Assembly: GCA_036345935.2 (NCBI GenBank)
Contig: JADWOT020001336.1
Coordinates: 24,856 to 88,855 of the forward strand
Source: Taenia hydatigena
Taxonomy: Eukaryota; Platyhelminthes; Cestoda; Cyclophyllidea; Taeniidae
DNA length: 64,000 nt
Direction: 5' to 3'
Numbering within the stretch: position 1 is the stretch's first letter; each line of letters starts with the position of its first letter. Below, in pieces: positions 4,322 through 64,000 of the stretch. The translations under genes were made by a program, and so were the position numbers. Below the pieces are notes generated by a model. That model was not told the origin of the DNA and searched no databases. It worked only from the letters and a program-made list of their open reading frames with translations.

Positions 4322-4487
4322 TTGCCAGGACAATGCTGTAATGCCACCTGACGCGATGTCTTCTCGACTTGCAATCAGTCAGCCAGTGATGTTTATTCAC
4401 GCCATAACTGACTGCATTTTGTAATGCCACAGAATGCAATTGACGAAATCTAATTAGACTGAGTAGTTGTTTAATTTTACTTAGCAG

Positions 4488-4760
4488 CTAAGTGATAAGA
4501 CATATCACCACCAATTGCAAGAACAGCACAATCAACTAGAGTTGCAGGCACAACTGAAGCTCAGATCTATTAAATTTGAGTACATTAGTGAGTTTGGGAA
4601 TGTTTTGAGATTAAAATATGTGTATTTAAAGCAAGACTATGATAACGTACAAGAGCAGATCAACATTAAGGGAAATTTAGGCACTTGGACACTCCTCAGA
4701 TCATTTTATTTCGGCCCCGCTGAGAGTCCATCTTTGGTGCAATTGTGCGAAGTCGTATGA
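4488..4760 (+). CDS. Coiled-coil-like exon, unrecognised (P1 left arm)
   Basis: After a strong acceptor (ttaattttacttagcag) an open frame runs LSDKTYHHQLQEQHNQLELQ... to a stop at 4758-4760. It is rich in Gln, Leu and Glu with heptad-like spacing. All three arm copies keep it open, with only Val/Ala and Ile/Met changes in the third. This may be the last exon of a coiled-coil protein; no upstream exon was identified because the P1 edge lies only 166 bp away. Confidence 0.35.
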   Translation, partial: LSDKTYHHQLQEQHNQLELQAQLKLRSIKFEYISEFGNVLRLKYVYLKQDYDNVQEQINIKGNLGTWTLLRSFYFGPAESPSLVQLCEVV

Positions 4761-6656
4761 GTTGTACAGCGAGTCATTGACAAGCGTTGATAGCTCTGAG
4801 TTGCAGAAGTGATATCTCACTGGCATCGCCCAGTTCTAACGCGTAACATCACATAAGGATCTGTTTTCCGTGCTTACCCCTTTGCCCAATTTGATGTTTG
4901 CACTCATTTGCAGTCTTAGCAATGGAATTTGATGTGCATGGGGCGCATAACTTGGGTTTAATAAAAAAACGAATCAAAGAACAAATGCAAAGAAGCAAAC
5001 ACCGAACCAACCACAGTTACCAATTCATGAATTAGGGATCTCTTATGCTACATCAAACAGAGGCTGCGACATTCAATGACCCAAGTGATGAACTGGGATC
5101 AAGACGTAGCAGGAAGGCCATGAAATGCATTTATGATACCTTTAATATGTAGCCATATGAAAAGGTGCGAAAAATGCATCATTAAATAGTGGCTTAATAA
5201 AAGCTGCCACTTAGCTGCTATGAGTGACTGCAGCACATACTGAAGGCGAGACAGTACATGCGCCGGATGTCGCAATGTAGGGCGTCAGGGGTAGTGGCTG
5301 GGTAGACGCAGGATCGTATGTTAGGTTAGAGGTCCTTGGGCAACTTGAGGTCAGTGCATTATAATGACAATAACCTAGGCGTAATGGATGTCGATCGCAA
5401 GTCAATGGTAATGGTAGTCCTCAGCGGCCGTTCATTGTTGAGCATAGCCATTGGGGCGTCTGCATTACCGCACGTTGAATTGTGTGTGCATGAGTTACAG
5501 CTGCTGCAATCTAGGACCAGGAATCGATTTGGGCTTTTTACCGTCGTAAAAAGGTTACGAGTTCATTTTTGGGCCGTTAATTACATTGCGCATCAATGCA
5601 AATGAAAAATGTTACTGCACTTTTCTTTACGATAATGCGAATCGCACGGAGAACAGAGCTTACAAAAGCATCCTCTACAGACAGGCCTTCTATTATAATG
5701 ACGGAAAATGGCCTACCATCATGGCTGGTAGTTACCGAGGGCTAATCCACCAAATGTGATTAGTTGTAACCTAAGTCATCACTCATCGTCTGATAAATTA
5801 AATATCAGAAACTGCAGTCTTTATCGTAGTTTGCCTCTTGCACGTTGCAAAACCACACCTTATGCATTTAGTTGATTAACTTGTGCAAAGAACGCAGCTT
5901 GTGCATCCTCCTGCAGCCTCATTCAAATACGCTTGGGTTTTTTCTGGAATAAAAATGACATGCCAACTTCATTAGAGCATCATTTCTGGTCTCACGAATC
6001 AAGTATTGGTAAAGAAGAGAAATATTTGCCTTAATAAACGCGTTGTATGTGATGCAAATAAGCTATAGCCAAACAAGACAGAAAAAGCAATTGGTTTGCT
6101 TAAAATCCCGTGCACAGGTTTTTAATCTCTGATCATGTAATTGTGTATTTCTCTTCAAAAAGTGCCCAAAAGGGCATGCGAGTAGGTCTCGAGATCAAAT
6201 AGAGAAGTTGAGAAGGTGAGGAAGTAAATTTACGGCAATATTCCCGCTCAGCAGTCTGCTGCACTCACATCTTCAACCCACAGCTCAGCTAGGGTGAGGA
6301 ATACGCTTACCGCAAAGACAATAAACAGTGCGGTATCCTTATGTCCTGCTTGAGACGCACAGCATAATTTCGCATTGAACGTAAGGGCACCATGTAGAAT
6401 AACGCCAAGGAAAGTTTTCTAGCACTTAAGTTGTTCAATATGCTGCATCAATTTATGAATGTTTCCGGAGTAATAAGATGGCAATAGAGTCCACATTTGA
6501 CGTTTTTCGCTCCAAAGCTCGCCCATATCTGTAATTCAAAAAGTATAACGCGCTTTCTTGTTTTCTTTTATTTGTGATTACGCTTTTTAAAGAACCGCTG
6601 CAGAATGTTGCACTACCCCAATGCATTTGACAGAGCGAACAACATTGGTGTTACAC

Positions 6657-6896
6657 CTACACAGACATGTCATCGCTCACAATTATATTGAATGTCTCCA
6701 TGCTTTGAGAAAGGTAGCAATCACCGGTTTCCTTGACTTTCACAGTGAGATGGTCCACTTTAAGGTTGTCAGTTGGGATGCTATGAATGTAAAATGATTT
6801 CGATCGTATTTTTGTCCACTTAGCTGCGAAGACACTGTGGCCTAATGTCAAATCCATTTCCAGCGGTGTCTGCGTTACTATTCTAAAGAAGAGCAT
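6657..6896 (-). CDS. 79-codon frame, unrecognised (P1 left arm)
   Basis: ATG at 6894-6896, stop at 6657-6659. The product alternates polar and hydrophobic residues (FYIHSIPTDNLKVDHLTVKV) like a beta-rich extracellular domain. The mirror copy is identical. In the third copy (about 55260-55500) AAG TGG has become AAG TAG, breaking the frame. It is probably a relic exon. Confidence 0.25.
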   Translation of the reverse strand: MLFFRIVTQTPLEMDLTLGHSVFAAKWTKIRSKSFYIHSIPTDNLKVDHLTVKVKETGDCYLSQSMETFNIIVSDDMSV

Positions 6897-7879
6897 AGCA
6901 CAAGCCTTAGAGAGTAGCCACAGACTATCTTGACTGCTTCCTTATGTTCCGTTCTTATTCTATGTTTCCATAGTGATGCACAATTTATTCCAAGACACGC
7001 ACACAACAACACCGGTAGTGGGCATTACTCCTAGGTATATGCTCAGCTCCACTTATCAACACTTCGTGAGATGTGTAAGGAGAGGGTAGGCAGCAACGTA
7101 CAAGGAGAGCATTGCAATGCGTTGCTTTTCTTTCGGATTATCCAGCGTAAAATAAATTCTTCTTAACGAAACATCCTGGTTATGTGCCTACACATGCATC
7201 TTTCCATGCAAGCATGACCTACACCGTCCCATAAGGGAAACCGGACCGGCAAGTTATGCCTTCAATTTGATTTATTTTTCAGAATATCTGTTTAAATTGA
7301 GACAAAAATAAATAAACTACTGCTGATCTTAATTCTAGGCGCAATCACAAGTGCCCTCAGCACAATACTGTAGTTTAACCAGCAATAATAACACAATGCA
7401 AAATTCAGTCCAAAATATGTGGTGTCTTGACCAGGAGGTCAATATGACAATTTGCAAAACAGGCGAAATGCAATTTAACTCACCATCAATATTGCAGAAT
7501 AAAAATAGATGCAATGACAAGAACCTCATAGTAGGTCTGTCTACGCATTCGTTCATCCAAAACCTGTGCCCATAACCTGAATCGGTTTTACAGCTTTATG
7601 ACCCACTTGTCACCCCTTACACTGTCATATTATCCTAGCTCCATCTTTATCTTCCATTACTTCGGTCTGGTGCATTCGACATGCAACTCTCTGATCACCT
7701 CCGTTGCTGCCACTATCTGCTTTCCGAGACCTGGTTTACCGTGCCTTATTCAGCATGCAAAAGCAGCATTGAGACGCATGACAACGGCATGAAAACAACA
7801 TCGTCTACTTCTCTACGCCTCTTGATGAAGTGAACGTTAATGGAGTGAATGAGGAAGAGCGAAGGATTTGGCGATACTT

Positions 7880-8165
7880 AGAGTGTAAAAAAGCAAGTAC
7901 CAGCTCCATCTCTTTACGAATGCACCAGCAAAGTCACTAACGCGTGCGAAAATGCCCTTTCTGTGATTAGATATCATGGCGCAGTTAAGTCCTCCAGGAA
8001 AAAAGGGAGGAAGAGAAAAAGCAAGAGGAAAGCTCTTCTTCTGTCTAATCTGCCAGCCTGTCTTTTCGATCGGTCGAACATGCCACAGCACATGCAGACA
8101 CATACGACGGCGAAGAGATGCCTCTGTTCTCATTGTCGTCGACCATTCATTAGCTATATTTTGCC
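7880..8165 (+). pseudogene. Snail-type C2H2 zinc-finger relic (P1 left arm)
   Basis: From 7884 the plus strand reads ECKKAS...SLRMHQQSH (finger 1, second Cys lost), stop, KCPFC, then a degenerate VLQEKREEEKARGK, FFCLICQPVF, a one-base frame change, DRSNMPQHMQTHTTAK, CLCSHCRRPF. The order matches the Snail family array: L.MH..(T/S)H, KC..CGK.FSRPWLLQGH, GEKPF.C..C...FADRSNLRAHLQTH...K..C..C...F. The DRSN.(R/P).H.QTH block is distinctive. Two stops or frame changes show it is dead. Confidence 0.7.
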
Positions 8166-9211
8166 CATCTAACAACTAAGAAGTTGCTTAGTCCCCACTC
8201 TTGCTTTAGCCAACATTAAGAATGATGCTTTGCTACCTGCATTGTCAAAACAGCAAAAGTCCATAACACTATCTCTGTCGCTTTGGGCAAAGAGTTGGAG
8301 ATGTTTTATCCCAAATTTACGCGTTGACCTTATTAAGGGCCTGTGCTATGCGTTTCTACGTTGTAGCAAACTGACGGCATTCTATTAATGGTAGTAAAAA
8401 GCAACGTTTCCTTTCATTTTGATCAAAATGGGCAGCAATAAATCAAATAAGCGCTTACCAAATATGTCGCTTATATTAGTGATGCCACGCCAGTGCCTTA
8501 GAATGCTGAACTAAATTATGCAATAGCAAATTTTGCTCATTTGCAAATGCTGTTGTTCAAACTTATTTTTAAAACACGTACTATTGTAGAGTACTAAGTG
8601 AAAGTCCTGGATATGCTGCAAGTGCTTTGTGCGATGTCGCCATTTACTAACTACGTCAATTAAGTCAATGAGGAAAAGACCACGATTGCGGCAAATGAGC
8701 TCAATACCTTACACACAGTGCTTTAAGGCCAGTTTAGATTTTAAAGGATATCCCGCTTACAGCTTCGTACCCCGTCACTTTTGCCTTTCCACAGAACCGT
8801 CAGCGACGTAAATATCTAAAGATGTGCCAGATACGTCGACATGAAAGCCTACTAGCTTTTTTGACATTCCACTATATTATCTCGTTTGTTGTGATACTTT
8901 AAGCAGCATGGTCATCTTAAGCTGTCTTTACATTTACTATTGCACTCAATGATGCAGCGAAGACTCAAGCTATTGGAAGATAATTGAAAAAAATAGCTTT
9001 ACAGCTAAGAGTCGGCTTTTACTTTGCCCAGTGCTCTCATTACATGGGGTCAAACAAGCCTAGATTTCGTCCCACTACTGAATTATTAAATGGGTGACGC
9101 ATTCTGATATGATAAGAAGGAGAATCAGTCTGCTACAACAAGAGGGTTTGTGCCACCTTTCATGCCTTCACCTTAAAGTTCGCTGTCCGCAAGTCGAGTA
9201 GTTCTTTACCC

Positions 9212-11000
9212 GAATCCTGATATGAGATAGAGGAATGCAGCTGCCCAAATGGACAATGGCGCAGATGTCCACAGACTCTGATGGCTTATAAGTTCAGGTA
9301 AGGTCGCGTAAAGGTCGTCTCACGTTTTAATCTACAGCCCTTGTTATTCGGGGTGCTGGCTAGGTGACGGTATAAAGCGACGACGCCTCTAACCCTAAGG
9401 TATTAGCAATCGATGCCTTGACTATGTCCAACCTCCAAGAGATCACCATTCTCACGTCACTAACATCGACAAGACTAATCGTATCGGAAATATTAACTGC
9501 TCTACTCTTACGGCCACGCATCTCTTGCCCATTCAACGTGGCATAAATTAAGATGCTTTGCATTGACTCATGCTAACTGCTTGCATCGCTATCGTTGACG
9601 GATGGTAATCAAAGCCTGTCCAACCTGGACGTACCACCAGCACCATCGATAACAGACCGCACAAACCCACCAGCGACAGTGGTTCTTACAGTGGTGATTA
9701 TGAATGCAGAGTCAAGCACCAGGTTGCACAATTCTTCGATTTAATCCATAGAAAGCGATCTTAGCCAAAGCCATTGTGCAGCGAAACTACATGTAGGGTG
9801 AGTCACGGCACAACCCAAACACTGCAGTGACGACCCGAACATTTGTTTGCAGCCGATTTTGTCCATGCGTCAAACTCTGTATTATGGGCGCAGTACACGG
9901 TACTGTTGATTAGATCTGACTAACCTATCAAAAGGCTAGAAGTTGCGTAAAATACCAAAATAATAGACGAAATCACGACACAAGGCTCGGAGACAATACC
10001 TTACATTTGATGAATGCACCTCATACAGAAATGCTCTCTATTCTTTATAACAAAGAAATTTCCACTTTCATTCCAATTATTAATCCTTAACTCGTAATTC
10101 GTTTTCATGTAATATTTACAGAGGATAACTAACAAGTTGTTTTCACACTGATCGATAATTCACAGCAAGCATAAATTTTGCAACCTTCCTTCTTAGCTTC
10201 CATTATTCCCGTTGTAAATCTCACCTCATGTTCAAAGTTAATAAACATGCTATGAAAAGGCATATCTTTTCGCAACCTCATCACAAAATTTAAGAATTAT
10301 TAAAGCAAAATATTTATTGAAGGAAAACATTAGATCTCACATAAGCATGACGATTGATACAAAGGAACTGGTCATCTAAAACAATAAAAGGATTGCATTA
10401 TAAGAAACGAAAAAATTGAAAATAGTGCCATGCAGCGCGTGTCTAAATGTAAGTGTTTGTGCAAATTAGCGCACTCGGAAGTAAGGGGAAAAAATGCTGG
10501 TGCAGTTGACTGCGTGATTCGTTGCATTAAACTAAATATGCCTAAAGTCATATTTAAAATCTATGCAGGGCATAACTCTCAATGCAAAAGCTGCGTTTCT
10601 TACACAAAAGTGGGTGAAGCTATCAAAGCAGTCACCTAAAATTCCGATAAATAACAGTTATGCAGCACAGCGAGAGCATAGGAAATGGTACAATCAACAC
10701 TGGCAATGGCAAAAAATACACTACATCAGGTGGTGCTTAGGCAAACACTGAGTAGCGACTCCAAAACACTATGATACACTTGCAGCAGCCTGTGTTACTC
10801 CCTTCAACATTGAGCGTCATGGGTCAAAGCACTAACAATGCAATAGCTTACCCATCTTTAAGCGCATTAACCATTTTAAAATCGGATAGACTACCATGGT
10901 GTGCTGTAAAATTGTCCAAGGGCGAGGCACCTTATTCTTCATGGTCTTCTAAAAAAGGAAAGAACACTTGGAATTACAGTAGCATGAGTTATAACAGTCG
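9212..11000. other. No gene seen
   Basis: AT-rich single-copy sequence between the P1 left-arm edge and the end of the CELF-like gene. Frames near 10430-11049 are short and lack splice or domain support. Confidence 0.5.
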
Positions 11001-13094
11001 TTACGACTTGTGGCTTATAAAAGATCTACCTTCAAGGCGCTTCAATTGAACTTTCAATCTTTTCCCTCCCAAAGCATATCCATCCATTGCGCGGATCGCG
11101 TTCTGCGCACTCGCGGTATCGTCGTAGCTGACAAAACCTGTAAAAATGGACACACCGCGGTTAGCAGAGAACGTGGCTGCATAAAGGACAATTAACTAAA
11201 CATGAGTACCTACCAAAGCCCTTGCTTTGGCCTGTCGCTCTGTCCAAAAATATCTTCACACTCAATACTCGCCCAAATGGTGCAAACAGATCGTGTAAAT
11301 TCTTTTCACTACATTCCTGAGGAATATGGAAGATGAACAGGTTGGAGCCTTTTGGGCCCCTTCTCACTGATTCCCGTCCAACGGGTTCTTGGTGATCAGG
11401 GGTGTTTGCAATTTGGGCGGCGTATTGAGCAGCCACTGCTACTGATGGCAAAAGAAGATAATGTATCAAGAACATTCTTAAATATGGGCAAATAAAAGGA
11501 GAAGCATAGACTCACCATACCCAAACTGGGGATTGATGCACACAGGTGGGTAGGTAGCTAAAATTAACGCACGATGATGAATGGCCATAAAGGCATAATT
11601 TCCACAGCAAAGGACGGCAAACAACAACTCACCTGCGCTGTTATAGGAAGTGCCTGGCATTGTAAGTTGCACATTCCAACTCGGGTAAAATTGGTTGGTT
11701 TGAAGTACCTCAGTAGCAAGATATTGCTGTTGCTGCTGCAGCATGAGCTGCTGTAAGTTGTGTTGAGCCACCATAGATGCAATGTACTGCACCACTAAGG
11801 GATCATTTTTTGCGTTGTCGGTTACAGCAGCAGCTGCAGGATTCGGCCATACTGGGAACGAAATCGCTGCACTTGGCAGGACCTGTGCAACTGCTGCGGA
11901 ACCCTGTAATGGTAGAACAGCCCTTTCATCTCAGCCTTTGCCTACATATGTAACCTTCAGAAGCATTTTAGTCGTCAGCAACTAAAAAGGGCCTTGCGCA
12001 TATAGTAGAAGCATAATTTCCTTAGCTAATCCACAAACGAATGTGCTTACGGATTGTAGCGTCGGAAGACAATGGCCGAGGTCACAACCAAGTGGCGCAG
12101 TAACGGCCATGGGGTAATTTATTTGGAAATTTGTAGTAGACTGTGCAACATTATGACCTCCGAGAGAGATCACAGCTGGAGTCGAACTTGAGCTCGATGG
12201 TAACATGTAGCCGTTGAGTAGAGGCATCGATCCGGCTGCTTCCATGTTTCTTTCGTAAGGTGCACCAGTAGCCGCTTTCGGCGGCAAATTATCTGAGTTC
12301 TATCAAAAAGCAACCATTGTTGCTAAATACGAGAAGGCATGGATATTTCACGGCCGTACTGCAGCCCAATTCCAAGTACTTACGGGTACTGTGGAAATTC
12401 CATCTGCAATAGTCAACGGACTAGGTCCTCTTGGGTCAAAGGAGTCCTCCGAGGCACGATCTTTGGTTTAATAAAATGTAATTGTAAAATAAAGCAAAAG
12501 CGACGTCAGTGGAAAAAGAAACCATGAAAAAACATTTTCTAACTTCACGGCCTCCTAAACTTGCATAGCAAGCCCTCCCTTTCAGTAGTAGATAGGCCTT
12601 CCTATCTAATACTGACGAAATCGGTCGCGACTTTCCTACATTAAAATCAGCCACAACCTTAAAAATTGCCTTGGCTGAGCTAACCTAGGAGCTCGCATTT
12701 AAATATCAAAAAAGGTAATAATTTTCAAATGTGTCACTTCGCTTGGCGTGTACTACTAACAAACTGGGGTGGATAAAAAGGGGTTGGGGCACATTCCGCT
12801 CTTGGTGGCTCTCCTAAGAGTACCGTCAAAACATCAACGAGTAAAGAAGATAGGTCAGCCAATTCTTGCTTATCACTATCTTATTTTTAAACTGCGGAGT
12901 GTCAAAAAAGGGAATAATTTGGCAGCTGTACGCAGAAACCGGGTGGTTTCATGAAAGAATGAAGTTTACAACCCTAAGAACATACCATTTGACAAGGACA
13001 CTATAAATGTAAGGCACTCACCGGAATTTCTGCCCTCCTGAACTTGAGGTGCAACATTAGAGTTAGAACTGGCTGATTCCGCTCTACGATCCAT
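11001..13094 (-). CDS. CELF/Bruno-like RNA-binding protein, single C-terminal RRM
   Basis: Seven exons (minus strand, 5' to 3'): 13022-13094, 12384-12460, 12051-12299, 11633-11903, 11516-11557, 11214-11441, 11001-11137. All junctions are GT-AG and phases agree throughout, giving 1077 nt, about 358 residues and a stop at 11001-11003. The start ATG is 13092-13094. The N-terminal two thirds is low-complexity, rich in Ser, Ala and Gln, with a poly-Gln run coded near 11730. The C-terminus is one RRM with RNP2-like LFIFHIP and RNP1-like SKGFGFVSY, ending [17 protein letters not shown], the hallmark of CELF RRM3 (established family knowledge). CELF proteins normally carry two further N-terminal RRMs; none is present here and exon 1 has its own ATG, so this is a shortened paralogue. 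Likely role: splicing or translation control (inference). Most introns are 61-147 bp; the first is 561 bp. Confidence 0.85.
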
Positions 13095-13485
13095 GCGCGT
13101 AGGAATGCAGTACAATGAACGATTCAGGACTACGTGTCACCCTAACACGAAATTTGGACCTGAGTGGTGCTACTGCTACTCAGCTTTGATATTTATACGT
13201 TTCTTTGGTGCGTCCGTTATCCATATTCTAAGCGCTTATTCGCCAATGGATGAATCACAACTCCTGCATTATTGGTTGGGAGTGATCAATGAGAGAATGA
13301 GGCATCTGATTGGACATGCCGATGAGTCTGCACAACTATTGGATCAGCGCCTTGTGCATTACGTTATGGATGAGCAAGTTAACCTTCTACATAACACTGG
13401 CCCAGTTAGTGTCAAAACTAGCGATTTTTATCGCGTCTGTCATAAACTAGAAAAGACTGCTAATATTATTGTTTGTCTTATATGA
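13093..13485 (+). CDS. 130-residue frame resembling a bMERB domain
   Basis: ATG at 13093-13095, stop at 13483-13485. It is head-to-head with the CELF-like gene: the two ATGs share the bases ATG/CAT at 13092-13095. The C-terminal 80 residues match the layout of the bMERB (Rab-binding) helix of MICAL and EHBP1 proteins: an acidic start, LLHYWLGVINER (compare W..LVNE+), a Gln/Leu-rich helix, a KTSD step and a final LEKTANIIV (compare L..IV.+RD.LV). No other domain is visible, and the Arg/Glu density is lower than in true bMERB helices. The mirror copy stays open. It may be a relic or a young gene, and may not be translated. Confidence 0.4.
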   Translation: MRVGMQYNERFRTTCHPNTKFGPEWCYCYSALIFIRFFGASVIHILSAYSPMDESQLLHYWLGVINERMRHLIGHADESAQLLDQRLVHYVMDEQVNLLHNTGPVSVKTSDFYRVCHKLEKTANIIVCLI

Positions 13486-14429
13486 CTTTACTCAATAAAT
13501 GGGTAATGAGATGTCCTTTTGTGGTGATTTGGCGTATAAACGCGGTCTACAATGGGTAAAACTCTTAAGTCAGCTGCTGAACTTGATAATGCCTCCCAAC
13601 GAAAGAAACGGAATGGCATTTGATGTGACACTTATTTTATCCCTTAGGGCGGACTAATTCACATCCACGTGAATTTGACCTAAGAATAAGTAGGACAAAA
13701 TGTGGTTCGGACCATTCGTGGGACATTTGATTCGACTTCATGGCCCGCTTGAAGCATCTAACATAACTTTGAGTTTGACATAAGGATGCCATCTTCGAGC
13801 CGAGATCAAAATACGCCCGGCAGGATCTGTGTGGTGGTATGTTTTTTGCAAGTTACTTTAAAAATTTGTTCATCCGATTTATGGTACAAGTTTATGCGTG
13901 TTGCTTGAGTAATCAACTGGAATTGAAGATCACAATTAGCTTTTTCATCCCAAGTTAAGCGCACTTAAGTCTCGGTTATAAGAGAATGATAAGTCTATGT
14001 TTTTTTTTGGAAAAATTCAAAGAGCGGGATTCATTCTGTGACATGCACGAGTACTTATTTGGAATTGATTTTCCTTTTTTGACAAGATGAACTAGGTAAC
14101 TCTTAATGGCATTTCGCCCATGATAATAAAACCACGGTAATTAGACTCATAACTCCACACAAATTATCTCTACTGATGAAACACTGGAAAAAAGCCAGTT
14201 GGAGAGACTTGTTAAAGTCAGTCACTGACTAATTCAATGCGCGCACTTTGATAAGATTTTGCCTGTATTGAAGAGAGAAGGAGATAGCACCTATGACGAG
14301 ACACGGGTAGAGTGCTGGTGAGTAATCGAGAAGTCAACCAGCTATGCAACCACTTAAACTTCATCCGTTTCGTTCTAAGACTAATTTTGCAATGCTTTTA
14401 CGTAACTGATCATAAAATATAAAACTGAG

Positions 14430-14640
14430 TTGGATAGAAAAGTGACTTTTACTAAAGGCAAAATGGGTGAGTTTAAAGGGAGAAATAAAGGCTAAGTCCT
14501 GCAACCCAAAATGAAACGTCTATTTCCTGACATCGATGCAGCGAAACACTCGACAAAATCCACCATTACCAGATTAGAATCATGCAGAAATTTCGTCAAA
14601 ATTTTGCCTCAGCCTGCATAGTGGTAGTCCTAAACACAAT
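14430..14640 (+). repeat. Member of a diverged coding-derived repeat (left arm)
   Basis: The plus strand here, its mirror on the minus strand (61485-61676) and the minus strand of 27925-28310 share an ancient sequence. Common features are a start AAGTGAC.TTT, then K-V-(L/V)-..-M-(K/R)-R-L-F-..-I-(D/N)-A-A-K, then a shared tail before GAATTTATGA.CTC. In the left copy the frame is stopped (GGC TAA); the right copy reads GGC AAA. Confidence 0.55.
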
Positions 14641-15306
14641 TTGTGCCGGTTGATCTAACATCAAGGGGAGGTCATAAATTCACTCCACGATCTATTGATT
14701 GAGGCCAACTATCTTTGAAATTGAATCGTTTTGTCTCCATGGAACAAGATAATATTAGCCTAGGGGAAATATGCAGTTAATATTTTAAAGGACGCGATTC
14801 ATTTCATAGAAACTCACACCCAAGACCGGTGGCGTTATATACTTCGAAACTACAAGCTTTGCCGAAACTTAATTTTCGGTGGCCGCCTGCGTCGGCATCA
14901 ACTGCATTTTGAAGTGGTGCTACTTTGGAGTGCATAGACTAAGCGCGCTCCGACTTTTACTTTACATGAGGTTATCGGCACTACGAAGTAGAGAAATTTG
15001 ACATTTGAAGTGGACTGTGGTACACTTGAAGCCTAGCTGTAACACACTGAACGCATTTTTAATTTACGACACTTGCGTGACACCTCTGGATAGACTGTAT
15101 CAGCTCCCTATGAAGGTGTTAAAAGTCAGGCGTCGCGCTAAGTGGTCATCGTTGGCGGCCATCCCCGTATTTTCTTTTGGAGTTTTAGAGGCTCTTGAGA
15201 CCTTACAATCATACTCAACCAGCATTAATTTGGCCATATAATATTGACCTCGGAAGCTGTGGTAATCATTCTGACCGAGAGATTAGTGTTGCGAAAGTGT
15301 GGCACG

Positions 15307-15453
15307 CTAGTGAAAAAGTGAACCCCATTCCAGCATCGGTGGTTGTTCGAGTTTAGCTAAAGTCCCGTCTGGATGCCTCATGACAAATATCCATTGCTGG
15401 CATGGTTCAGATGATATTGGTTGCTGTCGACCAGCTGAGTCTTTATCCGACAT
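15307..15453 (-). CDS. Short frame with a histidine-phosphatase-like start
   Basis: ATG at 15451-15453, 48 codons, stop at 15307-15309. It contains QQWIFVMRHPDG, resembling the RHG box of TULA/UBASH3-like histidine phosphatases (WVFVMRHGER), with the Gly-Glu replaced by Pro-Asp. No convincing continuation of the fold follows. The mirror copy is also open. It may be a relic of a first exon. Confidence 0.3.
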   Translation of the reverse strand: MSDKDSAGRQQPISSEPCQQWIFVMRHPDGTLAKLEQPPMLEWGSLFH

Positions 15454-22520: not shown

Positions 22521-22599
22521 TACCTCAGGGATCATGACAACCTCTTCCCTTCAGTGGAACGCAACAGCATTACTGACAAAGTTCACGTCGCCAATGGCA

Positions 22600-25774: not shown

Positions 25775-25775
25775 N

Positions 25776-53407: not shown

Positions 53408-54674
53408 AAAATCAGCGAGTGATAAAAACATGGCAACACTGTCAATCAGGTAGAACGTTATATTAAGCAAATAGTATAAAGGGCATGAATAAAATCTGCA
53501 TGTAGAATAACTCTAAATGATGTGAGCTGTGCTGCTTGTATTAAGGCAAGAGCAATAGTTAAAGCAAAACCATCCAAATTTTACTCAAACCGACAGTCAC
53601 GCAACACATTAGGGATAGCGAAAGCCACACGCCCAAATGATAACCCACTCAAGCACTCGGAGGTGACATCTAAAATGTAGTGCCAAAGCAAATAAAATCT
53701 CATGAAACTATTATTAAGAGTAAAACTTTGTACATAGTAGATTGCTGACGATACGACAGCGCTTAAATTAGTTCAAGAAATCGGCAAAGATTAGAGGAAA
53801 GGGCTGTAAGGCAAATTGGTCGTCCACTAGACAGTCAAAGGCAAGATGCATCATTTTCGATCGGCTACTAAAACAAAACAATATTTTGAAAGGCATTGTG
53901 CAAGAAGTATTAACGGTCTCTAAGATCTGTAGCGGTAAAAAGTTTACCTTGGAGCGCCTTAGATGAACCATTAAACTCTTCCTTCCCAAAGCCTATCCAT
54001 CCGTCGTACGTATCGTACCATGTGCACCTACAGCTTTGTGAACAGACACACTGCGTTCAACATAGAACGTGGAAATTTTTAAGGCATTTACTCTTGTACG
54101 CACATCTGATTTGCTCGGTTGCTCTGCCCAGAAACGCGTTCACACTTATCACCCGTCAAAATGACGAATGCAGGTTCTTCAGGTCCAATCCACTGCACTC
54201 TTACAGGAGATGAAAATAAACAGTTTGAAGTCTTCAATACCACTCTGGTGTGAGCAAAAGGGCAAAATTTATTAGGAACTTATTTTAAAGGAGGCCGTGT
54301 AAATTGATGAACACCTGCGACATCAACAACGTGACATATCTAACGTGCCACACAATTTAGCTTCTAGGGTTGGGCGAAAATACACCTTGGTGAAGGCGAC
54401 CCGACACGCAGAAGACTAGAGAATCGCGATGCATATGCTATTGTAAAGGCTACGATTCAGCCCTCAGTAGCGAATCCAAAGATTCATGATTTTAGTAGTT
54501 GGTATGAATTCAGAGAAAATTCTATCGGGATCCGGCAAGATAAGTAAAAAGTATCAGACAGTGATCAGTGGTCACTGTAAATGGTAGACCCCGTAGTTGT
54601 GTACCGTGTTTGCGTGCATTGTAACTAAGCCTATTCGTAAAGGTGCAATCACTCCGTGAGTTTCCCTGTACTTG
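53408..54674. other. 1267-bp segment present only in the third P1-arm copy
   Basis: The flanking words gcaattg (left) and gtttg (right) are adjacent in both P1 arms (around 6093-6100) but are separated here. Both edges show the trinucleotide ttg. No terminal inverted repeats are visible. It contains a decayed CELF fragment on the minus strand (53942-54235). Whether it was inserted here or lost from the other copies cannot be decided from this window. Confidence 0.85.
53942..54235 (-). pseudogene. Decayed CELF RRM fragment (intron retained)
   Basis: On the minus strand the sequence aligns by eye with the last two exons of the CELF-like gene at 11001-11441: SNLFIF near 54225, an AGTGTGAA...GGGCAGAGCAAC stretch, then, past a recognisable relic of the intron, the ATGGATGGAT...GCTTTGGGA...AGGCGCTCC end. 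Stops and frameshifts break the frame. Because the intron is retained, this came from DNA duplication and not from a retrocopy. It lies in the 53408-54674 segment absent from the P1 arms. Confidence 0.75.
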
Positions 54675-56474
54675 GTTTGTTTGAAATCCCGTGCACAGGT
54701 TTTTAATCTCTGATCATGTGGTTACGTATTTCTCTTCAAAAAGTGCCCAAAAGGGCACGCAAGTAGGTCTCGAGTTCAAATAGTGAAGTTGAGAAGGTAA
54801 GGAAGTAAAATTACGGCAATATTCCCGTACAGCAATCTGCTGCATTTACATCTTCAACCCACCGCTTAGCTAGGGTGGGGAATGCGCTTACCACAAAACA
54901 ATAAACAGTGTGGTATCCTTATATCCTGCTTGAGACGCACATCATAATTTCGCAATGAATGCAAGAGCACCATGTAGTAATATGGCTAAGGAAATCTTTT
55001 AACACTTAAGTTATCCAATAGACAGAATTAATATGTGAATGTTTTCGGAGTAATAAGGTGGCATTGAAGTCCACACTTAACGTTTTCCACTCCAAAGCCC
55101 ACCCATATCTGTTGTTCAAAAAGTTTAGGGCGCTTTTATGTTTTCTTTTATTTGTGATTAAGCTTTTTAACGAACCGCTGCAGAATGTTGCCCAAGGTTA
55201 ACTAAAGCACCACCCTAATTCATTTGACAAAGCGAACAACATTGGCGTTGCATCTACACAGACAAGTCTTCGCTCACAATTATATTGAATGTCTCCTTGC
55301 TTTGAAAAAGGTAGCAATCACCGGTTTCCTTGACTTTCACGGTAAAATAGTCCACTTTAAGGTTGTCAGTTGAGATGCTATGGATGTAAAATGGTTTCGA
55401 TCGTATTTTTGTCTACTTAGCTGCGAAGACACTGTGGCCTAATGTCAAATCCATTTCAAGCGGTGTCTGCGTTACTATTCTGAAGAAGAGCATAGCACAA
55501 GCCTTAGAGAGTAGCCACAGACGATCTCGACAGCTTTTTACGTTAAGTCCCTATCCTGTGTTTCCATAGTGATGCACAATATATTCCAAGACACGTATAC
55601 GACAACACCTGTAGTGGGCATTACTCCTAGGTATATGCTCAGCTCCACTTATCAAAACTTCGTGGGATGTGTAAGGAGAGGGTAGGCAGCAACGTACAAG
55701 GAGAGCATTGCAATGCGTTGCTTTTCTTTAGGATTATCCAGCGTAAAATAAATCCTCTTTAACGAAGCATCCTGGCTGTGTCTACACATGCATCTTTCCA
55801 TGCAAGCATGACCTACAACGTCCCATAGGGAAAGCTGGACCGGTAAGTTATGCCTGCAATCTGATTCATTTTCCCGAATTATCTGTTTAAAGTGAGGCAA
55901 AAACAACTGAACTGCTGCTGGTCCCACTTCTAGGCGCACTTACAAGTATTCGCAGCACAATACCGTACTTTAACCAGTAATAATAACATGGTGCGAAAAT
56001 TTGGTTTAGAATGTGTGGCCTCTTTTTGACCAGGAGGTCAATATGACAATTTGCAAAAACAGGCAAAATGCAATTTAACTCGTTATTAATATTACAGAGT
56101 AAAAATGGATGCAATAACAAGAACCGCGTGACAAGTCTGTCTACGCATTCGTTCATCCAAAACCTGTGCCCATAACCTGAATCGGTTTTACAGCTTTATG
56201 ACCCGCTTGTCACCTCTTGCACTGTCATATTATCCTAGCTCCATCTTTACCTTCCATTAATGCGGTCTGGTGCATTCGATATGCAACTCTCTGATCACCT
56301 CTGTTGCTGCCACTACCTGCTTTCCGAGACCTGGTTTACCGTGCCTTATGTAGCATGCAAAACCAACATTGAGACGCATGACAACGGCATGAAAACAGCA
56401 TCGTCTACTTCTCTACACCTCTTGACGAAGTGAACGGTAATGGAGTGAATGAGGAAGAGCGAAGGATTTTGTGA

Positions 56475-56750
56475 TGCTTAGAGTGTAAGAAAGCATGTAC
56501 AGGCTCCGCCTCTTTACGAATGCACCAGCAAAGTCACTTGCGCTTGTGGAAATGTTTTTTCTGTGATTAGGTATCATGGCGCAGGTAAATCCTCCAGGAA
56601 AGAGAAAGAAAGAGGAAAGCAAAAGGAAAGCTCTTCTTCTGTCTAATCTGCAAGCCTGTCTTTTTCGATCGGTCGAACATGTCACGGCGCATGCAGACAC
56701 ACACGACGGCGAAAAGCTGCCGCTGATTTCACTGTCGTCGACCATTCATT
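56475..56750 (+). pseudogene. Snail-type C2H2 zinc-finger relic, least decayed copy
   Basis: This is the third P1-arm copy. Finger 1 keeps both Cys (ECKKACTGSASLRMHQQSH), and the stop after finger 1 is absent (HLRLWKCFFCD). An extra T near 56660 puts FFCLICKPVFFDRSNM in one frame, so the finger broken elsewhere reads through. It is still disrupted by stops in the linker and after AKSCR. This suggests the other copies took further damage after separating from it. Confidence 0.65.
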
Positions 56751-58210
56751 AGCTATATTTTACCCATCTAACAACTAAGAAGTTGCTTAGTCCCCATCCT
56801 TGCTTTAGCCAACAATAAGAATGATGCTTTGCTACCTGCATTGCCAAAACAGCAAAAGTCCATGACATTATCTCTGTCGCTTTGGGCAAAGGGTTGGAGA
56901 TGTTTTTATCCCAAATTTACGCGTTGGCCTTATTAAGAGCCTGTGCTATGCGTTTCTACGTTGTAGTAAACTGACGGCTTTCAATTAATGGTAGTAAAAC
57001 GCAACGTTTCATTTTGGTCAAAATGGGCAGCAATCAATCAAAAAACGCTTACCAAATGTGCCGCTCATGTTAATAATGCCTCGCCAGTGCCTCAGAATGC
57101 TGAACTAAATTACGCGATAGCAAATTTTACTCATTTACAGTCGCTGTTGTTCAAACTTATTTTTAAATGACGTACTATTACAGAATACTGAAGGAAAGTC
57201 CTAGATTATGCCACAAGTGCTTTGTGCGATGCCGCCATTTACTAACTGCGTCAATTAAGTCAATGGGGAAAAGTCCACGATTGCGGCAAATGAGCTGAAT
57301 ACCTTACACATAGTGCTTTAAGGCCAGTTTAGATTTTAAGTGATATCCCGCTTATAGCTTCGTACCCCGTCACTTTTGCCTTTCCACGGAACAGTCAGCG
57401 ACGTAAATATCTAAAGATGAGCCAGATACGTCGACATGAAAGCCTACTAGCTTTTTTGACATTTCACTATATTATCTCGTTTGTTGTGATGCTTTAAGCA
57501 GCATGGTCATCTTAAGCTGTCTTTACATTTGCTTTTGCACTCAATGATGCAACGAAGACTCAAGCTATTGGAAGATAATTGAAAAAAATAGCTTTACAGC
57601 TAAGAGTCGGCTTTTACTTTGCCCAGTGCTCTCATTACATGGGGTCAAACAAGCCTAGATTTTGTCCCACTACTGAATCATTAAATGGGTGACGCATTCT
57701 GATATGATAGGAAGGAGAATCAGTCTGCTACAACAAGAGGGTTTATGCCACCTTTCAAGTCTTCACCTTAAATTTTCCTGTTCGCAAGTCGAGTAGTTCT
57801 TTACCTGGGTTTCTTCGCATTAGTTTTGGAAAACATTCGTTGTGTGAAGCACATTATGACGGAAATCCTATCCCTCCTTTAAAGCTCACCTATTCTTATT
57901 GCAGTAAACATGATTTTACTGTTCAGACCAACTCGGCAGAGCGCAGGTAGTCCTACGAAAAGAACACAAACATATACTTTGGGGTGAATATAAGAGCAGA
58001 GCATACGCGGCTCATTGTGTTGCACGTCTGCGTGATTACTTGAATACCGATTAACGTTATGCTCGTGTCCATCACAGGCGCTGTCCTTTTTTACCTCCAA
58101 GTAGGAAATACTGCCCACAGAATCCCATCCCTTCCTCACGTTACTCCTCAGGTTAACTTCACGTCATGGTGAGCTGCATCTCACTGTCAAGATGTTTTTT
58201 GAAACATTTG
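56490..58210. repeat. Tandem duplication, first unit
   Basis: This unit corresponds to arm positions about 7889-9211 followed by the flank equivalent to 16567 back to about 16220. It ends at acatttg, directly before the N at 58211. It differs from the second unit by scattered substitutions and by a replaced stretch near 57840-57900. Confidence 0.85.
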
Positions 58211-58211
58211 N

Positions 58212-58480
58212 AAAAGCAAGTACCAGCTCCGTCTCTTTACAAATGCACCAGCAAAGTCACTAACGCGTGCGAAAATGCCCTTTCTGTGATTAGATATCAT
58301 GGCGCAGTTAAATCCTCCAGGAAAAAAGGAAGGAAGAGAAAAAGCAAGAGGAAAGCTATTCTTCTGTCTAATCTGCCAGCCTGTCTTTTCGATCGGTCGA
58401 ACATGCCACAGCACATGCAGACACATGCGACGGCGAAGAGCTGCCGCTGATCTCACAGTCGTCGATCATTCATTAGCTGT
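58212..58480 (+). pseudogene. Snail-type C2H2 zinc-finger relic, tandem second copy
   Basis: This copy starts right after the N and lacks the first Cys residues. It shows SLQMHQQSH, stop, KCPFC, FFCLICQPVF and then, in another frame, DRSNMPQHMQTHATAK. Its lesions resemble those of the P1-arm copies more than those of the adjacent first unit. Confidence 0.6.
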
Positions 58481-59884
58481 ATTTTGCCTATCTGACAACT
58501 AAGAAGTTGCTTAGTCCCCATTCTTGCTTTAGCCAACACTAAGAATGATGTTTTGCCACCTTCATTGTCAAAGCAGCGAAAGTCCGTGACATTGTTTCTG
58601 TCGCTTTGGGCAAAGGGTTGGAGATGCTTATATCCAAAATTTACGCGTTGGCCTTATTAAGAGCCTGTGCTATGCGTTTCTACGTTGTAGGAAACTGACG
58701 GCATTCTATTAATGGTAGTAAAATGCAACGTTTCCTTTCATTTTGATCAAAATGGGCACCAATCAATCAAATAATCGCTTACCAAATATGTCGCTCATAT
58801 TAGTGATGCCACGCCAGTGCCTTAGAATGCTGAACTAAATTACGCGATAGCGAATTTTGCTCATTTGCAAATGCTGTTGTTCCAACTTATTTTTAAAACA
58901 CGCACTATTGTAGGGTACTAAGTGAAAGTCCTGGATATGCTACAAGTGCTTTGTGCGATGTCGCCATTTACTAACTACGTCAATTAAGCCAATGAGGAAA
59001 AGACCACGATTGCGGCAAATGAGCTCAATACCTTGCACACAGTGCTTTAAGGCCAGTTTAGGTTTTGAAGGATATCCCGCTTACAGCTTCGTACCCCGTC
59101 ACTTTCGCCTTTCCACAGAACCGTCAGCGACGTAAATATCTAAAGATGTGCCAGATACGTCGACATGAAAGCCTACTAGCTTTTTTGATATTCCACTATA
59201 TTATCTCTTTTGTTGTGATACTTTAAGCAGCATGGTCATCTTAAGCTGTCTTTACATTTACTTTTGCGCTCAATGATGCAGCGAAGACTCAAGCCATTGG
59301 CAGACAATTGAAAAAAAAATTAACTTTACAGTTAAGAGCCGGTTTTGACTTTGCCCAGTGCTCTCATTACATGGGGTCAAACAAGCCCATATTTTGTCCC
59401 AATTCTGAATCATTAAATGGGTGACGCATTCTGATATGATAAGAAGGAGAATCAGTCTGCTACAACAAGAGGGTTTGTGCCACCTTTCATGCCTTCACCT
59501 TAAAGTTCACTGTCCGCAAGTCGAGTAGTTCTTTACCCGGGTTCTTCGCATTAGTTTTGGAAAACATTCTTATTCCAATAAACATGATTTTACTGTTCAG
59601 ACCAACTCGGCAGAGCGCAGGGAGTCCTACGAAAAGAACACAAGCATATACTTTGAGGTGAATATAAGAGCAGAGCATACGCGGCTCATTGTGTTGCACG
59701 TCTGCGTGTTTCCTTGAATACCGATTAACGTTATGCTCGTGCCCATCACAGGCGCTGTCCTTTTTTACCTCCAAGTAGGAGATGCCGCCCACAGAATCCC
59801 ATCCCTTCCTCACGTTACTCCTCAGGTTAACTTCACGTCATGGTGAGCTGCATCCCACTGTCAAGATGTTTTTTTAAACATTTG
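58212..59884. repeat. Tandem duplication, second unit
   Basis: It restarts immediately after the N at arm position about 7889 (aaaagcaagtacc), repeats the same path, and passes acatttg at 59884 into unique flank. It could be a true tandem copy or two alleles placed in series; the single N at the junction leaves both open. Confidence 0.85.
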
Positions 59885-60651
59885 CACTCACTAATTACAG
59901 CAAATAAGCTTTGCATGTTGATTTCAATGTTAAAGGCAACACTTAGAGTGGACATGGTCTGCACTTCTGGCTACGCATCAACTTTTGTGTCCGTCATCGA
60001 TTCCGCACTTTTTAGCATGCATTGGGATGCAGACAGCATAGACCTGGGGCCCGTCTCCACTCATAAAATCTAATTGTACACCAAGTAACGGCTCTGAACA
60101 GACATATACGCAATGCAGACAGCGAATTCATGCTGCAGTCTTTAGGTAAATTTTATGCGCTCAGTATTTTGCATGTCCACCTCACACATCTGTTCCTGGG
60201 TATTTAAAACAGACATTGTCCTTGTATAAATTGAGCGAAAGCAATCAAACCGCAATTAGGTGCAATTTAAGCAACTAGTTCCTTCACCCTTTCATCATTG
60301 GCCAAACATGAGAAGCAGATGCTAGGCTTAATCCATGTTTTGCCTAAACTGACGATCACCTTGCTGATTCCAAAAAATCAAACTGGGTTTCGTCAAATTA
60401 GCACAAGCACAGGGACGTATTTGCAAGGAAGCAAATGGATCTAATCGTGATTGAACAGGTTGTAATAAACTGTATCTTTATAAATAATGACAAGGATTGT
60501 GTCTGGCTGCAAGACTTACCAAATCTGTGCGTGTCATTAGGCGCGATTACGAAATTTGCTAATTTAACTTAGGCCCGACCCCCTGACCTGGGAAGAGCAG
60601 TCTAAAAATCAATGCAGGCATGATTATTACCCAGCGTGATGTAATGCCGCA

Positions 60652-60798
60652 ATGTCGGATAAAGACTCAGCTGGTCGACAGCAACCAATATCATCTGAAC
60701 CATGCCAGCAATGGATATTTGTCATGAGGCATCCAGACGGGACTTTAGCTAAACTCGAACAACCACCGATGCTGGAATGGGGTTCATTTTTTCACTAG
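60652..60798 (+). CDS. Mirror copy of the histidine-phosphatase-like frame
   Basis: This is the P2 partner of 15307-15453, with ATG at 60652 and TAG at 60796-60798. It keeps WIFVMRHP and the full length, with a Leu/Phe difference before the end. Confidence 0.3.
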   Translation: MSDKDSAGRQQPISSEPCQQWIFVMRHPDGTLAKLEQPPMLEWGSFFH

Positions 60799-61484
60799 CG
60801 TGCCACAGTTTCGCAACACTAATCTCTCGGTCAGAATGATTACCACAGCTTCCGAGGTCAATATTATACGGCCAAATTAATGTTGGTTGAGTATGATTGT
60901 AAGGTCTCAAGAGCCTCTAAAACTCCAAAAGAAAATGCGGGGATGGCCACCAACGATGACCACTTAGCGCGACGCCTGACTTTTAAACACCTTCATAGGG
61001 AGCTGATACAGTCTATCCAGAGGTGTCACGCAAGTGCCATAAATTAAAAATGCGTTCAGTGTGTTACAGCTAGGCTTCAAGTGTACCACAGTCCACTTCA
61101 AATGTCAAATTTCTCTACTTCGTAGTGCCGATAACCTCATTTAAAGTAAAAGTCGGAGCGCGCTTAGTATATGCACTCCAAAGTAGCACCACTTCAAAAT
61201 GCAGTTGATGCTGACGCAGGCGGCCACCGAAAATTAAGTTTCGGCAAAGCTTGTAGTTTCGAAGTATATAACGCCACCGGTCTTGGGTGAGAGTTTCTAT
61301 GAAATGAATCGCGTCCTTTGAAATATTAACTGCATATTTCCCCTAGACTAATATTATCTTGTTCCATGGAGACAAAACGATTCAATTTCAAAGATAGTTG
61401 GCCTCAATCAATAGATCGTGGAGTGAATTTATGACCTCCCCTTGATGTTAGATGAACCGGCACAAATTATGTTTAAGACTACCA

Positions 61485-61676
61485 CTATGTAGGCTGAGGC
61501 AAAATTTTGATAAAATTTTTGCATGATTCTAATCTGGCAATGGTGTATTTTGTCGAGTGTTTCGCTGCATCGATGTCAGGAAATAGACGTTTCATTTTGG
61601 GTTGCAGGACTTTGCCTTTATTTCTCCCTTTAAACTCACCCATTTTGCCTTTAGTAAAAGTCACTTTTCTATCCAA
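61485..61676 (-). repeat. Member of a diverged coding-derived repeat (right arm)
   Basis: This is the P2 mirror of 14430-14640. It is open for 63 codons (MKRLFPDIDAAK core). It is strongly basic, which suggests a nucleic-acid-binding or ribosomal origin, but no family is recognised. Confidence 0.5.
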
Positions 61677-62969
61677 CTCAGTTTTATATTTTATGATCAG
61701 TTACGTAAAAGCATTGCAAAATTAGTCTTAGAACGAAACGGATGAAGTTTAAGTGGTTGCATAGCTGGTTGACTTCTCGATTACTCACCAGCACTCTACC
61801 CGTGTCTCGTCATAGGTGCTATCTCCTTCTCTCTTCAATACAGGCAAAATCTTATCAAAGTGCGCGCATTGAATTAGTCAGTGACTGACTTTAACAAGTC
61901 TCTCCAACTGGCTTTTTTCCAGTGTTTCATCAGTAGAGATAATTTGTGTGGAGTTATGAGTCTAATTACCGTGGTTTTATTATCATGGGGCGAAATGCCA
62001 TTAAGAGTTACCTAGTTCATCTTGTCAAAAAAGGAAAATCGATTCCAAATAAGTACTCGTGCATATCACAGAATGAATCCCGCTCTTTGAATTTTTCCAA
62101 AAAAAACATAGACTTATCATTCTCTTATAACCGAGACTTAAGTGCGCTTAACTTGGGATGAAAAAGCTAATTGTGATCTTCAATTCCAGTTGATTACTCA
62201 AGCAACACGCATAAACTTGTACCATAAATCGGATGAACAAATTTTTAAAGTAACTTGCAAAAAACATACCACCACACAGATCCTGCCGGCAGTATTTTGA
62301 TCTCGGCTCGAAGATGGCATCCTTATGTCAAACTCAAAGTTATGTTAGATGCTTCAAGCTGGCCATGAAAGTGCCGCAGCTTCAAGTAATTTTACGTTTA
62401 ACATCCTCTTAGACTTACTTAGATGGCAGAATGTATGCATAGATGGAAGTACCTTTGCCTTTTGTGCAGGATAAATATCGAGATGCTTTCACAAAAATCG
62501 TGTAAAGGGAATTTCTAGTGTGGTTAAATTCCAAGAGTGCATTCCTGTAATCTGCATCAGAATTTCCTTGCAAAAATAAGGCGTTTATTGCCAACCGTAA
62601 TCACTAATCACTATGTTTGATTCCTTTCACACATCCTTTTCTAAATTTGGACTAACTTGCTTCCTCGAATCAGCAAGAATTGCTCGAGATAATGCACATT
62701 TGTACTTTACCGTTGGAAGTCGAATCAAATGTCCCTCAAATGGCCCGAACCACATTTTGTCCTACTTATTCTTAGGTCAAATTCACGTGGATGTGAGTTA
62801 GTCCGCCCTAAGGGGTAAAATAAGTGTCACATCAAATGCCATTCCGTTTCTTTCGTTGGGAGGCATTATCAAGTTCAGCAGCTGACTTAAGGGTCTTATC
62901 CATCGTAGACCGCGTTTATACGCCAAATCACCACAAAAGGGCATCTCATTACCCATTTATTGAGTAAAG

Positions 62970-63362
62970 TCATATAAGACAAACAATAATATTAGCAGTC
63001 TTTTCTAGTTTATGACAGACGCGATAAAAATCGCTAGTTTTGACACTAACTGGGCCAGTGTTATGTAGAAGGTTAACTTGCTCATCCATGACGTAAGGCA
63101 CAAGGCGCTGATCCAATAGTTGTGCAGACTCATCGGCATGTCCAATCAGATGCCTCATTCCCTCATTGATCACTCCCAACCAATAATGCAGGAGTTGTGA
63201 TTCATCCATTGGCGAATAAACGCTTAGAATATGGATAACGGACGCACCAAAGAAACGTATAAATATCAAAGCTGAGTAGCAGTAGCACCACTCAGGTCCA
63301 AATTTCGTGTTAGGGTGGCACGTAGTCCTGAATCGTTCATTGTACTGCATTCCTACACGCAT
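62970..63362 (-). CDS. Mirror copy of the bMERB-like frame
   Basis: This is the P2 partner of 13093-13485 and is open over the same 130 codons. I count three silent and three replacement differences (Ala/Val, Arg/Gly, His/Pro). That is near the neutral expectation and gives no sign of purifying selection. In this copy the frame also stays open upstream through the antisense of CELF exon 1. Confidence 0.35.
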   Translation of the reverse strand: MRVGMQYNERFRTTCHPNTKFGPEWCYCYSALIFIRFFGASVIHILSVYSPMDESQLLHYWLGVINEGMRHLIGHADESAQLLDQRLVPYVMDEQVNLLHNTGPVSVKTSDFYRVCHKLEKTANIIVCLI

Positions 63363-64000
63363 GGATCGTAGAGCGGAATCAGCCAATTCCAACTCTAATG
63401 TTGCATCTCAAGTTCCGGAGGACAGAAATTCCGGTGAGTGCTTTACATTTATAGTGTCCTCGTCAAATGGTATGTTCTTAGGGTTATAAACTTCATTCTT
63501 TCATGAAACCACACGGTTTCTGCGTGCAGCCGCCAAATTATTCCCTTTATTGGCACTTTGCAGTTTAAAAATAAGATAGCGATAAGCAAGAATTGGCTGA
63601 CCTATCTTCTTTACTCGTTGATGTTTTGACGGTACTCTTAGGAGAGTCACCAAGAGTGGGATGTGCCCCAACCCCTTTTTATCCACCCCAGTTTGTTAGT
63701 AGTACACGCCAAGCGAAGTGACACATTTGAAAATTATTACCTTTTTTGATATTTAAATGCGAGCTCCTAGGTTAGCTCAGCCAAGGCAAATTTTAAGGTT
63801 GCGGCTGATTTTAATGCAGGAAAGTCAGGACCGATTTCGTCAGTATTAGATAGGAAAGCCTATCTACTACTGAAAGAGAGGGCGTGTTATGCAAGTTTAG
63901 GAGGTCGTGAAGTTAGAAAATGCTCTTAATGTTTTCTTTTCCCACTGACGTCACTTTTGCTTTATTTTGCAATTCCATTTAATTATACCAAAGGTCGTGC
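63361..64000 (+). CDS. Second CELF-like gene copy, 5' part only
   Basis: This is the P2 mirror copy of the gene at 11001-13094. Exon 1 is 63361-63433 (ATG GAT CGT AGA..., donor gtgagt), the same 73-nt length and phase as the left copy, with a few amino-acid changes (Asn for Ser, Ser for Pro, Pro for Gln, Asp for Gly). Exon 2 would start at 63994, after accaaag. The joining codon changes from Asp to Gly. The gene leaves the window seven bases into exon 2, so whether the copy is intact cannot be judged. Confidence 0.6.

Follow-up and report, generated by a model that had tools for sequence, protein, structure and literature searches.

Long near-perfect inverted repeats have been reported from Caenorhabditis, where an active mechanism was inferred to keep their arms alike (Zhao et al. 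2007, PMC1803023), and the palindromes of mammalian X and Y chromosomes, as outlined in two reports (PMC3723533, PMC8981503), have arms more than 99.9% identical that carry a mosaic of arm-specific variants. Fold-back inverted duplications, in which a spacer separates the arms and the junctions share almost no homology, are described from human copy-number variants, cancers and yeast (PMC3907307, PMC10622511). Here we describe inverted repeats in 64,000 bases of the tapeworm Taenia hydatigena (the window, meaning the whole stretch of DNA analysed): a palindromic unit, P1, whose spacer holds a piece of a CELF/Bruno-like RNA-binding gene, and a larger mirrored arrangement, P2, consisting of a core and outer blocks, which an initial annotation had taken for a palindrome of more than 51 kb with P1 nested inside it.

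P1 shares with the mammalian palindromes the high arm identity and the mosaic of arm-specific variants, and differs from them in that its gene piece lies in the spacer and appears free of selection, and in the absence of a bias towards GC. The host differs as well, tapeworms being hermaphrodites. The Caenorhabditis repeats likewise are long, near-perfect and set in a compact invertebrate genome, but they are gene pairs at orthologous places in three species, whereas here we find a dispersed, apparently neutral unit with near-identical arms in three of six cases. The P2 core, together with a comparable duplication on another contig (C886), resembles the fold-backs in having a spacer and almost no junction homology, and lies in a repeat-rich compartment; unlike them, it would need two joins, because its right arm ends in a separate flanking segment (y, below).

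The window comprises bases 24856-88855 of an unplaced contig of 88.9 kb (working name C627), which is almost wholly repeats and at whose end the window stops; 63,918 of its 64,000 bases were matched at 80% identity or more in at least one of eight other contigs examined. Copies were searched in the 306.0-Mb assembly of 1,354 contigs, some of them chromosome-size, and the contigs used for comparison were picked by match rank. Two single Ns divide the window into contig pieces A (up to 25774), B (25776-58210) and C (58212-64000). Its GC content is 41.3%, against 43.0% in the genome paper, which describes version 1.2 of the T. hydatigena genome as 308.5 Mb with 46.7% unclassified repeats, assembled from PacBio reads with Canu, polished with Pilon, scaffolded from mate pairs with SSPACE and later with Hi-C (PMC8384839). 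The main text of that paper contains none of the strings 'palindrom', 'inverted', 'CELF', 'CUGBP' or 'RRM', and a literature search on tapeworm palindromes turned up no title on that subject among those listed. We think it likely that the window combines a P1 family unit with probable arm-to-arm conversion, a recent inverted duplication forming the P2 core, and an outer palindrome created by two misjoins.

P1 and its dispersed family

Self-BLAST of the window recovered the inverted duplications as they had been described, namely the P1 arms, the inner arms of P2 and the mirrored outer blocks. The P1 arms (4318-9211 against 21461-16568) align over 4,894 bp with three mismatches (at 4321, 8559 and 9182) and no gaps (99.94% identity), and the unit sits wholly inside one contig, with no N between arms and spacer. 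Its parts, and a segment that its arms lack, are as follows.

4318..9211, plus strand: P1 left arm (self-BLAST); contig C1218 has both of its junctions and C892 the inner one
9212..16567, no strand: P1 spacer, 7.36 kb, 98% identical to C1218
11001..12275, minus strand: 3' part of the CELF/Bruno-like RNA-binding gene, five exons, with a stop at the end
16568..21461, minus strand: P1 right arm, the reverse complement of the left arm, without a 1.2-1.3-kb segment
53407..54671, no strand: the 1.27-kb segment, which the right arms of C1218, C299, C688, C104 and contig B contain

P1 is a genuine member of a dispersed palindromic family. A segment of its spacer (12000-14000) gave 74 matches, of which 36, the window's own included, span at least 1,629 of 2,001 bases at 87-100% identity; the best 40 of 172 candidates were scored, hence there are at least 36 near-full copies. 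At the protein level, 82 of the 150 listed matches to one CELF exon (the best 150 of 470 candidates) span at least 96 of 116 residues at 71% identity or more. With few exceptions the close copies sit on contigs that are not known to be of chromosome size; the exceptions are those on C8 (0.20 and 0.42 Mb) and C5 (0.97 Mb), two contigs with further hits at 15.1 Mb (C8) and 13.9 Mb (C5). Among seven units visible on both sides of the spacer, six (P1 of C627 and those of C1218, C892, C299, C688 and C386) show inverted arms joined to the spacer at the identical junction, which argues for a single founding duplication before amplification; C104, which begins inside the spacer, was not counted among the seven.

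The orientation of the CELF-piece copies is consistent with this structure. Of 11 contigs with a pair of close copies (71% identity or more over at least 96 residues), 10 carry the two in inverted orientation (p 0.012), and the addition of two partial matches gives 12 of 13 (p 0.003), the copies lying 16-222 kb apart. With close and distant CELF-like matches pooled, 22 of 29 neighbouring pairs are inverted (p 0.008). That count omits one direct and one inverted pair, which lie on C2 and C5, as well as the 15.1-Mb hit on C8 and, in C764, the second exon hit of one copy. Some observations weigh against so regular a family. Pooled pairs within 50 kb are inverted in only 12 of 17 cases (p 0.14), and the seventh unit, at C627:282-15829, has a left arm and spacer, separated by an N, with no right arm in the next 9 kb.

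The CELF piece, on the minus strand, was modelled as exons 12275-12051, 11903-11633, 11557-11516, 11441-11214 and 11137-11001 with introns retained; the model covers the 3' part of the gene only and the 5' edge of its first exon is uncertain. The product of 300 codons carries an RRM_1 domain (2.3e-10) of the CELF-type RRM3 and matched CELF chains in PDB. Among the best 120 of 2,248 protein matches, five cover at least 75% of its length, all from Taenia or Echinococcus (T. solium, at 52% identity over 75% and at 38% over 98%; T. asiatica and E. granulosus, each at 37% over 98%; T. crassiceps, at 35% over 90%), and the others cover 46% at most. A nematode origin, to which short introns and the GC content had first pointed, was dropped once these tapeworm relatives appeared; searches of the genome gave neither an SL1 RNA nor a cuticle-collagen domain, a weak negative by itself, since the two queries had no match in the control genomes either. 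Among the eight best-matching copies, the window's own included, the ratio of nonsynonymous to synonymous substitution rates (dN/dS) was 0.53-1.40 in 27 of 28 pairs and 0, with no amino-acid change, in the remaining one; two of the eight copies have a frameshift and one has a stop. Judged by these substitutions, the CELF piece is drifting neutrally and is a decaying passenger of the unit; the reading of a single-copy functional CELF gene in the P1 spacer is rejected, given how many copies exist and that they drift neutrally. Pfam searches of some of the open reading frames (ORFs) in the P1 arms identified no gene there, and tRNA and Rfam searches of the 64-kb window gave no match. A second group of 52 listed CELF-exon matches at 41-47% identity, mostly 109-residue frames with one or two in-frame TAG codons and nearly all off the contigs known to be chromosome-size, is possibly a second amplified CELF-like family.

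Similarity of the P1 arms

Arm identity within the six two-armed units falls into two groups. The arms are near-identical in C627 (99.94%), C299 (99.7% over 1.6 kb, where the arm stops at the contig end) and C892 (98.3% over 2.4 kb, where it stops at an N), these last two values thus covering less than full arms, and divergent in C1218 (93.8 and 96.3%), C386 (90.1%) and C688 (88.4%). Since the inner junctions would predate amplification, near-identical arms in three units call for later homogenisation. In a FastTree phylogeny of 14 arm sequences (the C386 arms not among them), the two P1 arms were sisters (support 1.000), as were the two C892 arms (0.999), while the C299 left arm joined contig C within a C299 clade and the C1218 and C688 arms remained unpaired.

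In the inner 3.1 kb of the arms there are 168 sites at which the C1218 arms differ and both P1 arms agree; at these the P1 arms carry the base of the C1218 right arm 138 times, that of its left arm 30 times and another base never. The two classes are arranged in blocks, with 21 switches against a mean of 49.3 in shuffled data (none of 10,000 shuffles as low), and the outer part of the P1 arms is nearer to the C1218 left arm (98.8 vs 97.7%). The 1.27-kb segment is missing from both P1 arms and from the C1218 left arm; the copy at C627:282-7186 has it in its left arm. At the informative sites there was no sign of GC-biased conversion (70 S, 75 W). A probable, and the best, reading of the 99.94% identity is arm-to-arm gene conversion, given that the P1 arms bear one mosaic of the C1218 arms and that neither has the 1.27-kb segment.

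This reading has points against it. C1218 could be either an allele or a paralogue, and one comparator cannot name the donor arm; a mosaic might also result if read correction had blended copies; and in half of the two-armed units (three of six) the arms, at below 97%, have not been homogenised, identities of 98% or more being confined to the other three. The earlier proposal that conversion keeps the arms alike finds backing for P1, and would hold for only part of the family. A segment of about 347 bp (window 62369-62715) is present in contig C and absent at 13739 in contig A, in C892 and in C1218; judged from the gap between match pieces, it is probably in most family copies.

The P2 core and the single-N joins

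The remaining features of the window belong to P2 and to the joins between contig pieces.

12454..25774, plus strand: "outer left arm" of P2, the end of contig A, of the same repeat family as 47280-64000
25775, no strand: single N joining contigs A and B, contradicted by C1218 and C684
25776..28238, no strand: segment x, left flank of the P2 core, 2,463 bp, without a homologue across the core; x, arm and spacer occur in C684 without the right arm
28239..34661, plus strand: P2 core left arm (self-BLAST)
30383..30470, plus strand: 88-bp segment that the left arm shares with C684 and the right arm lacks
34662..38189, no strand: P2 core spacer, between the core arms
38190..44523, minus strand: P2 core right arm, with 2 bp shared at the inner junction and one unmatched base at the outer junction
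44524..47279, no strand: segment y, right flank of the P2 core, 2,756 bp
47280..58210, minus strand: "outer right arm" of P2, the part in contig B (self-BLAST)
58211, no strand: single N joining contigs B and C, which are different copies with about 1.7 kb of overlapping end sequence at 87.6%
58212..64000, minus strand: contig C, 99.6% identical to C299 (19 kb) over 5,790 bp

The P2 core lies in one contig without an N, and by self-BLAST its arms (28239-34661 against 44523-38190) differ by nine substitutions and one 88-bp indel, and its flanks x and y do not match each other. Relative to C684, the ancestral state at the nine differing sites is in the left arm five times and in the right arm four times; this 5:4 split and the one-sided 88-bp deletion are what two real copies would give. 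C684 itself carries x, left arm and spacer at 97-98% identity and then leaves the spacer for other sequence, and it is into this post-spacer sequence, not into a P2 arm, that y runs on in all four of the other contigs examined across 44525 (C1218, C297, C752 and C893), a count that covers these four while more copies of y exist in the genome. C886 holds another inverted duplication of the P2 arm, about 390 bp further on and with other breakpoints, whose arms match over at least 1,995 bp with no mismatch and share two bases at the junction. The P2 core is thus probably a recent inverted duplication, separate from P1. Against this stands the fact that, among the contigs examined, both junctions of the P2 right arm occur only in C627, so that a chimera is possible. 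A 12-bp inverted microhomology at the inner junction was rejected as a BLAST edge effect, the letters showing 2 bp.

Other arrangements of P2 sequence were seen. C297:112465-119177 holds an inverted pair of P2 spacer pieces (each 96% identical to the window) flanking one P2 arm piece. Window 31637-32532, in the P2 arm, has distant relatives (about 66-73%) on chromosome-size C1, C3, C4, C5, C6 and C9 among the best 40 of 1,584 candidates scored, and is probably an older interspersed repeat.

Beyond the core, the outer blocks of 12454-25774 and 47280-64000 mirror each other about a centre at 36425 at 88-98% identity by block, and the block lengths and identities leave no room for chance. Their divergence is uneven: 27 mismatches in 4,314 bp beside the first N, next to that, 0-11% per 100 bp within the arm, with about 9% between 19688 and 16222, and 2.8% in 17890-13737. 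The symmetry across the core, however, depends on both single-N joins. The Ns at 25775 and 58211 fall exactly on edges of homology blocks; with 12 block pairs and 48 edges in 64 kb, we estimate that chance would place a base no more than 1 bp from an edge in about 0.2% of cases. A third N of C627, at 8411, lies between blocks that share 151 bp of the same sequence (35133-35283), and the N of C892 stands exactly at the start of its arm homology, so that all four Ns in the sequence examined (three in C627, one in C892) are on homology edges. The examined stretches of C1218, C299, C104, C688, C684, C297, C752 and C893 and the first stretch of C886 have none. A single n may be the mark that the scaffolder SSPACE leaves between contigs expected to overlap. 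Three comparison contigs, C886, C386 and C893, are exactly 168,000, 193,000 and 52,000 bases long and the end of C892 is the start of C893, as if Hi-C correction had cut contigs at round numbers.

The join at 25775 finds no support from either side, because C1218 runs from A into y and C684 has other sequence before x. C1218 20001-62145, without an N, follows the order of C627 17624-50629, on the A side and with P1 in it, at 97.8% identity up to C627 44543 and 97.6% after the 1.27-kb insertion. It is uninterrupted at 55998|55999, where base 55998 pairs with window 25774 and base 55999 with window 47279, from which it continues towards 44525. In C684 the 2.9 kb upstream of x is not contig A; the one point to the contrary is a weak 311-bp match (72%) to A in this stretch, which lies in the other orientation. 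At the second join, contig C is 99.6% identical to C299 and the contig B arm only 91.9% identical to the C299 right arm, so that B and C are different copies. The outer 51-kb palindrome is therefore best explained, from these comparisons of contigs, as a scaffolding artefact, and the nesting of P1 in P2 loses its support with it.

Competing explanations and significance

Direct observation covers the P1 unit and its common inner junctions, the measured identities, the mosaic, the Ns and the contigs that contradict the join; the history we favour for them would run as follows. The P1 unit, with its inverted arms, 7.4-kb spacer and dead CELF piece, would have arisen once as an inverted duplication and then been copied many times, and some copies, the window's included, would have had their arms homogenised by gene conversion. 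The P2 core may have been made at a break or template switch with almost no shared sequence, and would have its origin in break repair. Contig A, which should read into y, would then have been attached to the P2 core on the wrong side, presumably because paired reads that reach the P2 arm cannot tell its two copies apart; with y at 2,756 bp and x at 2,463 bp, pairs from A across y could land on the other arm with a near-zero gap. Contig C would have been hung on B although their ends overlap.

The strongest competitor, although we think it unlikely, is that everything is artefact, the P1 identity and the P2 core included, read correction having blended copies and chimeric reads having made the fold-backs. 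The whole window is repetitive, which is the setting in which the correction of noisy long reads mixes copies; the junctions peculiar to C627 would fit, and the 100% identity of the C886 arms over 1,995 bp is what a chimera would also give. However, the P1 structure recurs in six of seven units, arms that are 4-12% apart stay distinct in C1218, C386 and C688, and the P2 arms differ at nine sites and by the 88-bp deletion, with ancestral states split between them. Missing-adapter reads give spacer-free fold-backs, unlike those found here, whose spacers are several kb long. False duplication by the assembler, which the initial annotation had itself named as a refutation, applies to the outer palindrome.

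A mobile element with long terminal inverted repeats (Foldback- or Polinton-like), the spacer being its body, would account for a dispersed, high-copy structure with inverted arms around a body at constant inner junctions. We consider it improbable, since the outer arm ends vary (the left arm of the C627:282-7186 copy extends further out than that of P1), no target-site duplication was seen by eye at the P1 outer ends, and the gene piece in the body keeps its introns. Of 40 ORFs scanned with Pfam, out of 710 frames of at least 40 residues, none had a transposase, integrase or polymerase domain, although non-autonomous copies could be without one.

A true nested palindrome, with P2 of more than 51 kb real and P1 in its left arm, has the reversed order of matching blocks on both sides of 36425 in its favour, and is nonetheless hardly credible given two contigs that contradict the 25775 join from both sides, the unmatched x and y, and a contig C that belongs with C299.

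Least credible of all are ampliconic palindromes of a sex or B chromosome, an analogy to which the near-confinement of close copies to contigs not known to be chromosome-size and the presence of RNA-binding genes in human Y palindromes lend some colour, but which is countered by the copies on chromosome-size C8 and C5 (the latter with y-like sequence at 0.40 Mb as well) and by a dN/dS of about 1 in the gene piece, unlike the genes of ampliconic Y or W regions. The long-coverage relatives of the gene piece are taeniid and tapeworms hermaphrodite, so neither the sex-chromosome reading put forward earlier nor a comparison of male with female read depth applies; taeniid tapeworms are not known to have sex chromosomes. 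A B chromosome, for its part, may still be the location.

The locus carries a caution for repeat-rich drafts, in that a mirror-symmetric scaffold of tens of kb can come from one real inverted repeat and one misjoin, the telltale being a single N on a homology edge. It is also conceivable, though we put it forward tentatively and think it rather doubtful, that this hermaphrodite tapeworm has a palindrome-rich compartment that behaves like a Y chromosome without being one, with a unit carrying a dead gene piece dispersed to dozens of sites, conversion without a selected gene in some copies and new inverted duplications still arising alongside, which would have helped to swell the genome to about 300 Mb. 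Conversion in P1, if true, would mean that arms can be homogenised without a sex chromosome or a selected gene, and that the mechanism is separable from the rescue of Y genes; the many copies of the unit would then be replicate palindromes within one genome for measuring conversion rates.

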